A DNA stretch of 64,000 nt, taken from positions 806,001 to 870,000 of the forward strand of contig NZ_SMCO01000001.1 of assembly GCF_004346685.1 (NCBI RefSeq), written 5' to 3'. Within the stretch, counting starts at the first letter, position 1. The number at the start of each line of letters is the position of its first letter. Of this stretch, positions 35,047 to 37,031 are shown in pieces. The notes below the pieces were generated by a model. That model was given only the letters and a program-made list of their open reading frames with translations, made no database searches and was not told the DNA's origin. The translations under genes were made by a program, and so were the position numbers. This stretch comes from Sulfurirhabdus autotrophica (lineage in GTDB: Bacteria; Pseudomonadota; Gammaproteobacteria; Burkholderiales; SMCO01).

Positions 35047-35406
35047 ATGGCGCAGGAAAATAGCAAGCTGGACAAATTAGTGCTTGAGGCACGCCGAAAT
35101 GCAGAGAAAAGAACTACTGGATATCGAGAGCAAGCGCTAAAGCTGTACCCTTGGGTTTGTGGTCGCTGCGCCCGTACTTTTACCCGAGAAAACCTCCAGT
35201 TGCTGGAGGTACACCACAAGAACAGCAACCATGACGACAATCCGGCTGATGGCAGCAATTGGGAACTCCTCTGCACTTATTGCCATGAAAATGAACACTC
35301 CCGGATTAAAGATTCAACTGGTCGTTCTGATGATGGAAATTCTGAAAACCTGGCCACCTTCAATCCGTTTGCAGGACTAAAGGATTTGTTGAAGAACAAA
35401 AAATAA
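35047..35406 (+). CDS. yajD: YajD family HNH nuclease
   Basis: 119 residues with a single HNH domain: CxxC zinc pair (CGRC), the histidine pair EVHHKNSNHDDNPADGSNWE, and the second pair CTYCHENEH. The order and the C-terminal NPFAGLKDLLKNKK closely resemble E. coli YajD, whose in vivo role is not settled. It starts at ATG 35047 with GAGGTG upstream. It does not look like a restriction or intron endonuclease. A small hairpin (TACGAGG/CCTCGTA, 35423-35441) follows it. Confidence 0.9.
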   Translation: MAQENSKLDKLVLEARRNAEKRTTGYREQALKLYPWVCGRCARTFTRENLQLLEVHHKNSNHDDNPADGSNWELLCTYCHENEHSRIKDSTGRSDDGNSENLATFNPFAGLKDLLKNKK

Positions 35407-35639: not shown

Positions 35640-36929
35640 CTACTTGAGCTTCATATTGTGAGCAAGCGCATTTCTCGCAGCAGCATTGGCTTTGGCCTCT
35701 TTGACAAGCTGTCTTAGCGCTTGTGGATCCACGTCAAGATCGCCTGCCGGATAGAGGTTAGGCAAGAGAGACCCGAGAGCATGCATAGGGAAACCGACTC
35801 GAACCTTGCCTCGCGGGGTATCGGAGACAAGGAACCCTTCGAGGACGAGCACGTTAAGCACGTCTCTCGCTGTCCTTTCTGGGAGGCCGGTGAGACGGCC
35901 TGCCTCCATGCGCTCAAATTCTCCAGTACTGAAGGCATGGATGAAGAGGTGTGCAGACTCAGGTTTGAGGTCGAACCGCACTTTCTGGAAAAATTGCTTG
36001 GCTCTGAATCTAAAGTTGTCGAGTGCGAACATCCTGGCCATGAATTTGGCCTGATCGATGGCAGTTTGCATGGCGTACTCACAAAATTCTGCCAAGCGCT
36101 TTTCGGACAAGTTTCCACGCCCATCAAGATCGCCCATTCGAGGTTGGTCGGCTCCGGCTAGTTTCGCCTTGTATTCTTCCGCGGTCTTCGCGAACCCTCG
36201 GGACATCGACCATAGGCATGCGCCATTTACTCCACACTCTCGGAGCATTGCGTCGATGGTGATCCGCGCCACCCGACCGTTCCCATCAAGAAAGGGGTGA
36301 ATCCACACAACTCGATGATGGGCTGCGAAAACCGAAAGAATGCCGTTTAGCTTGCTTATTCCGCCTTTTTTTGACCATTCCAGGCGGAGGCCGTAGACCT
36401 CTGTGAAGCGCTCTAGGAAGCGATTAAGTGTGTCTGCTCTTGGCGCTACATGTATGCCTACGTGGACATCCCTCTCGCGGAACTTTCCGGGCTCCATGTA
36501 GCTCCCGTCCTTGAGCGTCAGCATTTCCTTCGGCAAATGCTCGCAAAAGCGCCGGTGAACTTCGAGGATAAAGGGAAGTAGAAAACTTTTGTCGAGCGAC
36601 TGCAACTTTGCCCATCGATCAGCCTCGATGTGAGCAAATGCAAGACTCTGCAAGTCCGTTTGCTCTATCTGCTCCTTTACCTCGAACAGCGCCTTCTCAA
36701 TATCAATTGGTAAGGTGTGATGGCCCTCGATCAAGTTCGAGTAGTAACAGTTCATCCCCGAGACAAGCTCGGAGAGGCTTTTCGCGGTCGCTGGAACAAG
36801 TGCAGCGTCTAAGCAGGCAGACGCTTCTGATAGCTCGTGAGCAAGCCCGATCAGCGAGTCATAGATAGGCCGAGAGCTATCGATGACTAGCGGTTCCATC
36901 TGAGTAGGATTGTCGTATAACTCAATCAT
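35640..36929 (-). CDS. Fic family protein (predicted AMPylase) with C-terminal winged-helix region
   Basis: 429 residues. The Fic core carries the full active motif HPFLDGNGR at 211-219, so nucleotidyl transfer (usually AMP to a Ser/Thr/Tyr of a target) is expected. An N-terminal inhibitory motif S64-NLI-E68-G69 matches (S/T)xxxE(G/N), so the enzyme should be self-inhibited. Residues about 335-382 (RLTGLPERTARDVLNVLVLE) look like a winged helix. No antitoxin gene lies beside it. GAGGAAAC precedes ATG 36929. The gene is visibly more GC-rich than its neighbours and is likely acquired. The target is unknown. Confidence 0.93.
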   Translation of the reverse strand: MIELYDNPTQMEPLVIDSSRPIYDSLIGLAHELSEASACLDAALVPATAKSLSELVSGMNCYYSNLIEGHHTLPIDIEKALFEVKEQIEQTDLQSLAFAHIEADRWAKLQSLDKSFLLPFILEVHRRFCEHLPKEMLTLKDGSYMEPGKFRERDVHVGIHVAPRADTLNRFLERFTEVYGLRLEWSKKGGISKLNGILSVFAAHHRVVWIHPFLDGNGRVARITIDAMLRECGVNGACLWSMSRGFAKTAEEYKAKLAGADQPRMGDLDGRGNLSEKRLAEFCEYAMQTAIDQAKFMARMFALDNFRFRAKQFFQKVRFDLKPESAHLFIHAFSTGEFERMEAGRLTGLPERTARDVLNVLVLEGFLVSDTPRGKVRVGFPMHALGSLLPNLYPAGDLDVDPQALRQLVKEAKANAAARNALAHNMKLK

Positions 36930-36944
36930 TGTTTCCTCTGAATT

Positions 36945-36963
36945 TGCCGATGACTGTGCCGAT
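36945..36963 (-). repeat. Fic-promoter tandem element, copy 1
   Basis: On the minus strand ATCGGCACAGTCATCGGCA: two ATCGGCA units at a 12-base step. It overlaps the last bases of the TATAAT-like -10 box and covers the likely transcription start, a classic repressor position. Confidence 0.7.
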
Positions 36964-36967
36964 TATA
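36962..36967 (-). promoter_or_regulatory. -10 box of the Fic gene
   Basis: Exact TATAAT on the minus strand, about 33 bases before the Fic ATG. No good -35 is present at 16-18 bases, so an activator or the upstream repeat may matter. Confidence 0.45.
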
Positions 36968-37012
36968 ATTCATAAACAATTAAATAGTTAGCGTTAGATC
37001 ACACGATATCTC

Positions 37013-37031
37013 TGCCGATATCTGTGCCGAT
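37013..37031 (-). repeat. Fic-promoter tandem element, copy 2
   Basis: On the minus strand ATCGGCACAGATATCGGCA: same two-unit, 12-base-step layout as copy 1, differing only in two spacer bases. It is 68 bases upstream of copy 1. Confidence 0.7.

Follow-up and report, generated by a model that had tools for sequence, protein, structure and literature searches.

A 12-base direct repeat at its own promoter is the probable operator of a class II Fic AMP-transferase

A paired 7-base element flanking the promoter of a fic gene in Sulfurirhabdus autotrophica is most probably the operator of Fic itself, a class II Fic AMP-transferase that would bind these direct repeats head-to-tail and repress its own gene. 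The gene lies within the 64,000-nucleotide stretch of DNA analysed here (the window). Judging from sequence comparison, Fic very probably controls its own expression through an arrangement of binding sites previously undescribed for Fic proteins. A first-pass annotation of the window had suggested that Fic regulates its own promoter, and this idea gains support from conservation of the element, a predicted winged helix in the protein and co-variation between operator and recognition helix. Class II proteins account for about 80% of all Fic proteins, and their control is nearly unknown (PMC9755527).

Results

Repeats at the fic promoter

The minus strand reads ATCGGCACAGTCATCGGCA at 36945-36963 (the proximal copy) and ATCGGCACAGATATCGGCA at 37013-37031 (the distal copy, 68 bases from the proximal one). 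The first-pass annotation had placed two pairs of ATCGGCA at these coordinates and on this strand; inspection of the sequence bore out both pairs, the four exact units, the 12-base step and the 68-base distance. The overlap it described between the first copy and a TATAAT box was also found, the -10 box (36962-36967) and the proximal copy having two bases in common. Beyond that description, the distal copy continues with the 12-base step kept into ATCGTGT at 37001-37007, which appears from its sequence to be a degraded unit of the distal cluster. The features of the region are listed below.

37025..37031, minus strand: distal cluster unit 1, ATCGGCA, exact; aligned in close homologues
37013..37019, minus strand: distal cluster unit 2, ATCGGCA, exact, 12-base step; conserved
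37001..37007, minus strand: putative degraded third unit of the distal cluster, ATCGTGT, 12-base step
36985..36990, minus strand: poor -35 candidate TAACTA, 17 bases before the -10 box; read from sequence and missed by the consensus scan
36962..36967, minus strand: -10 box TATAAT, overlapping proximal unit 1; TATAATCG invariant in seven close loci
36957..36963, minus strand: proximal cluster unit 1, ATCGGCA, exact; conserved
36945..36951, minus strand: proximal cluster unit 2, ATCGGCA, exact; present in 7/7 close loci
36934..36939, minus strand: AGAGGA, resembling a ribosome-binding site by sequence
35640..36929, minus strand: fic (start at 36929), 429 aa, predicted class II Fic AMP-transferase with a C-terminal winged helix (Pfam PF02661, 5e-12; model pLDDT 90.9)
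36723..36740, minus strand: inhibitory helix motif SNLIEG, residues 64-69; N65, I67, E68 and G69 invariant in 65 proteins
36264..36299, minus strand: Fic motif HPFLDGNGRVAR, residues 211-222; core residues invariant in 65 proteins
35796..35957, minus strand: winged helix-turn-helix domain, residues 325-378, from the predicted structure
35841..35879, minus strand: predicted recognition helix, residues 351-363, with R352, R355 and D356, from the predicted structure and co-variation with operator bases

The repeat observation is correct and beats chance. Matches with three or fewer mismatches numbered 24 in the window compared with 6.7 +/- 2.7 in shuffles. A genome-wide pattern search located exact ATCGGCA-N5-ATCGGCA at two sites in the whole 3.86-Mb genome, both at the fic promoter, and the control pattern, read backwards, had zero exact matches in the same 3.86 Mb. 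Six of seven one-mismatch sites elsewhere in the genome were checked, and these sit in open frames of 250-696 codons. No sigma-70 promoter passed our scan of the fic promoter because the -35 candidate is poor; despite this, TATAATCG is unchanged across the seven close loci.

The Fic protein and its structural relatives

The protein carries the class II signature (S/T)xxxE(G/N), as SNLIEG, in a helix N-terminal to the Fic motif, and the Fic motif itself (HPFLDGNGRVAR, PF02661, invariant core); by these two motifs it is a predicted class II Fic AMP-transferase. Its predicted structure (pLDDT 90.9, pTM 0.88) ends in a winged helix-turn-helix at residues 325-378, close to the region of about 335-382 that had been described as winged-helix-like. 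The absence of an antitoxin gene beside fic was likewise borne out: the 450-base upstream gap holds only short chance ORFs. A type II toxin-antitoxin system (FicTA, Phd-Doc) was rejected, since no separate antitoxin gene adjoins fic. The neighbours of fic in the window are a UPF0114 gene and an HNH gene, the latter encoding a small HNH endonuclease directly 3' of fic on the opposite strand (35047-35406); no neighbour gene is common to the close fic loci compared.

The closest solved folds to the model (Foldseek) were CbFic2 (8CIL), CccR (7XUX) and SoFic (3EQX). CccR of Yersinia pseudotuberculosis (PMC9755527; PDB 7XUX), among the best matches at a TM of 0.76 of target and about 20% identical to the window Fic, is likewise a class II protein with an N-terminal inhibitory helix and a C-terminal winged helix. 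It represses its own promoter near -35/-10; the operator, known from footprinting, is a single inverted repeat, AGATAATCAT-N26-ATGATAATCT, to which CccR binds as a two-fold dimer (PMC9755527). The window Fic has in common with CccR the C-terminal winged helix and a repeated site at its own promoter that is tied to Fic by conservation and co-variation; it differs in that its repeats are direct and follow a 12-base step, forming two clusters separated by about 67 bp. The Coxiella burnetii protein CbFic2 (PMC10628234; PDB 8CIL), the best match by E-value, is also class II, with a C-terminal winged helix that binds DNA. DNA alters its AMPylation state, and its DNA binding was tested on random DNA only, with no specific operator known (PMC10628234). 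The precedents of CccR and CbFic2 show that winged-helix domains of this kind can bind DNA. SoFic (PDB 3EQX/3ZCN) has the same three-part build as the window Fic. The PADLOC SoFic profile matched the window Fic at 6e-27; the protein falls outside the SoFic family of NCBIfam (NF046030), as its score of 18.7 bits is below the curated threshold of 550 bits.

Conservation and layout of the repeats across the family

To follow up the check proposed with the first-pass annotation, the element was sought upstream of Fic homologues, and strong conservation rather than its absence was found. It is present at the equivalent place in six Fic genes from scattered taxa whose products are 81-92% identical, the records bearing the names Sulfuricella, Propionivibrio, Gallionella, Nitrosomonadales, Azonexus and a Chloroflexi bin. 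The DNA farther upstream of fic is unrelated among these close loci though the element is kept, and the only proteins common to them are Fic and frames overlapping fic. The element and the gene thus move as one.

We then considered 111 non-redundant fic loci (32-100% identity, plasmid loci included). An exact 6-mer was repeated upstream of fic at a lag of 12 in 81/111 loci, and at 12 or 13 in 94/111. Other lags from 5 to 30 were seen in 3-19 of the 111, both values of 19 belonging to lag 13 and to lag 24, and the latter is the second harmonic of the 12-base step. Neither 12 nor 13 was found at the 6-mer level in 17/111, several of which have looser repeats. For a smaller set, lag 12 occurred in 55/67 loci compared with 4.2 +/- 2.0 (maximum 9) in dinucleotide shuffles, and control windows inside or downstream of fic gave 7/70, 9/68 and 5/63. 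The word varies by lineage (ATCGGCA, ACCGGCA, ATCGGCC, AGCGGAC, ATCGCTA, CTTGGCA, GTCGCA, TTCGCCA and AGTGATC, among others) while the step stays at 12 bases in relatives down to 32% identity. A step of 13 belongs mainly to one offshoot clade that keeps ATCGGCA (L135-L144, L117, L125, L133, L134, L078), and both steps occur in the single promoter of L054.

Orientation is fixed, with 234 units forward (facing the gene) and 5 reverse. A long-spacer inverted-repeat operator of the CccR kind was rejected given these direct repeats, and the inverted-repeat spectrum upstream of fic in the wider family had no sharp peak. Typically a pair of distal units and a proximal cluster of one or two, near the start codon, flank the promoter at a separation of about 67 bp. 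The spacing is 65-69 in 45/71 two-cluster loci, with almost none at 58-64, 70-74 or 82-86. A -10-like box between the clusters is mildly enriched (83%, compared with 63% in shuffles). We make no claim that the two clusters are in helical phase: their spacing lattice fits steps of 10-12 bases about equally, being confounded by the 12-base step between units.

This layout bears on the sign of regulation. Fic might bind the repeats and activate its own gene or switch it between two states, the distal cluster helping RNA polymerase at the poor -35, and the end of that cluster about 10 bases upstream of the -35 is an activator-like position. We consider this unlikely, as the proximal cluster overlaps the -10 box and start, or sits in the leader, in nearly all loci, which is a roadblock position, and CccR is a repressor.

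Co-variation of the operator word with the recognition helix

Residues 352, 355 and 356 share one face of the predicted recognition helix (i, i+3, i+4). We first read the unit words by eye in the DNA and then compared them with protein columns. C at base 7 and Arg356 agree in 96/99 loci, and in 88/88 where Arg355 is present; base 7 is C in 36/38 loci with Arg356 compared with 1/61 otherwise (Fisher 2e-23). The exceptions (L012, L013, L017) belong to a divergent group lacking Arg355. Residue 356 is the best column for base 7 (2e-23, next 3e-14 in the final set; 2.6e-15, next 7e-10 in an earlier one). GG at bases 4-5 accompanies the pair Arg352 and Arg355 in 81/84 loci, and the pair is missing from 15/15 loci that have no GG. 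In a tree built from residues 1-320, which omit the domain, base 7 and residue 356 change together in four parallel events among proteins with Arg355; a formal independent-pair test yielded 3-5 pairs, too few independent changes for significance, and this is the main statistical limit of the analysis. The rule was already in place when 12 plasmid loci were fetched, and all 12 agree with it, two of them from an AGCGGAC-like group with Lys356 and the word CGGAA instead of CGGAC. Every readable locus of a further set also agrees (L124 and L126 were ambiguous), and in L122 of this set Ser355 is paired with a CGCA word.

When co-variation was scored by distance across the whole unit, the peaks were mixed, at residues 40-51 and 345-356, the former probably a result of common descent. 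Tests of single bases set base 7 clearly apart; several other bases peak at columns outside the domain that look like lineage markers. The results predict an amino acid-to-base code in which Arg356 would go with C at base 7, and Arg352/Arg355 with GG.

Because the operator co-varies with the recognition helix, Fic itself rather than an unrelated regulator is indicated. The alternative that another host DNA-binding protein reads the repeats, with Fic merely its target, is very improbable: Fic is the only gene common to the loci, plasmid copies sit in dissimilar gene surroundings, and the repeat word changes along with residues 352, 355 and 356 of Fic, of which 356 is the best of all columns for base 7. 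It is harder still to credit that the repeats work in RNA as a leader element controlling translation. The proximal unit does lie within the probable leader, but the distal cluster carries the identical word upstream of the promoter and no Rfam family matches. Slippage or functionless chance words, which the long tandem arrays at L008, L015 and L145 might suggest, can be dismissed on the constant step, the constant distance between separate clusters, the retention of the element among proteins 81-92% identical despite unrelated flanking DNA, and the co-variation.

Discussion

We infer direct binding by Fic, repression in preference to activation, and bridging of the two clusters. In the proposed mechanism, one winged helix would read one 7-base unit (ATCGGCA in the window). 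As the units follow head-to-tail every 12 bases, which is one helical turn plus about 50 degrees, adjacent Fic subunits would share one orientation along a single, gently spiralling face. With one cluster just upstream of the core promoter and the other on the -10 and start or in the leader, filled clusters would block RNA polymerase and keep a potentially toxic AMP-transferase scarce, an autorepression like that of CccR, there on a palindrome. Inhibition would be built into the enzyme through SNLIEG, which would make a separate antitoxin unnecessary. The near-fixed spacing of the clusters would fit looping and also a simple roadblock plus upstream contact.

Solved Fic dimers of comparable build (CccR, SoFic, CbFic2) are two-fold symmetric and suit inverted, not direct, repeats, so a head-to-tail contact must be assumed for Fic to read its sites. 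How a protein with two-fold-dimer relatives would read head-to-tail sites is thus a structural question raised by this family. BldC and excisionases such as Apl and RdfS are reported to form head-to-tail oligomers on direct repeats about one helical turn apart, resembling the binding proposed for Fic, but these small DNA-binding proteins are unrelated and carry no enzyme domain. As a tentative extension, Fic might polymerise head-to-tail and bridge the clusters across the promoter, with packing on DNA setting the AMPylation state; the array would then be both a gene switch and a store of inactive enzyme.

SoFic-type genes differ from the window Fic family in their upstream DNA. The 12-base step was found in 2/14 SoFic-type control genes, and 12-base direct repeats with a run of 7 or more in 0/12 SoFic-type upstream regions. 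Upstream regions of the SoFic type (n=12) instead hold inverted repeats (longest arm mean 8.6 vs 6.2 shuffled), in agreement with the footprinted CccR inverted repeat. As SoFic-type genes lack the 12-base step, the direct-repeat layout is a trait of the window Fic family and not of all winged-helix Fics, and one enzyme build would go with two operator layouts, inverted repeats in the SoFic and CccR types and direct repeats here. Strong inverted repeats upstream of the SoFic-type loci L087, L091, L095, L081 and L082, for example TATCATGTATAGAAA with a 7-base gap, are candidate operators of the CccR kind.

The first-pass annotation knew of no description of the element. This stands for the layout, as our literature search found no 12-base direct-repeat operator of a Fic protein, family-wide or otherwise, in coverage that left most subscription journals outside, and among the matches listed for the bare word ATCGGCA there were only unrelated ones. 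It does not extend to Fic autoregulation, already known from CccR and its inverted repeat (PMC9755527). A whole family of Fic proteins gains a testable predicted operator and about 100 natural protein-site pairs.

Several further features of individual loci were recorded. A search of viral contigs found no relative. Long tandem arrays upstream of fic in L008, L015 and L145 (7, 8 and many copies, respectively) resemble iterons or partition sites. In the AGCGGAC lineage (L011, L028, L059, L041) the proximal repeats lie at or just beyond the start codon, where the 12-base unit may double as coding sequence for a repeated K-A-D-M/I tail. The plasmid loci L111, L113, L114 and L118 adjoin defence-like genes, including TIR, caspase-like, abortive infection, HEPN/nucleotidyltransferase and BrnT/BrnA genes.
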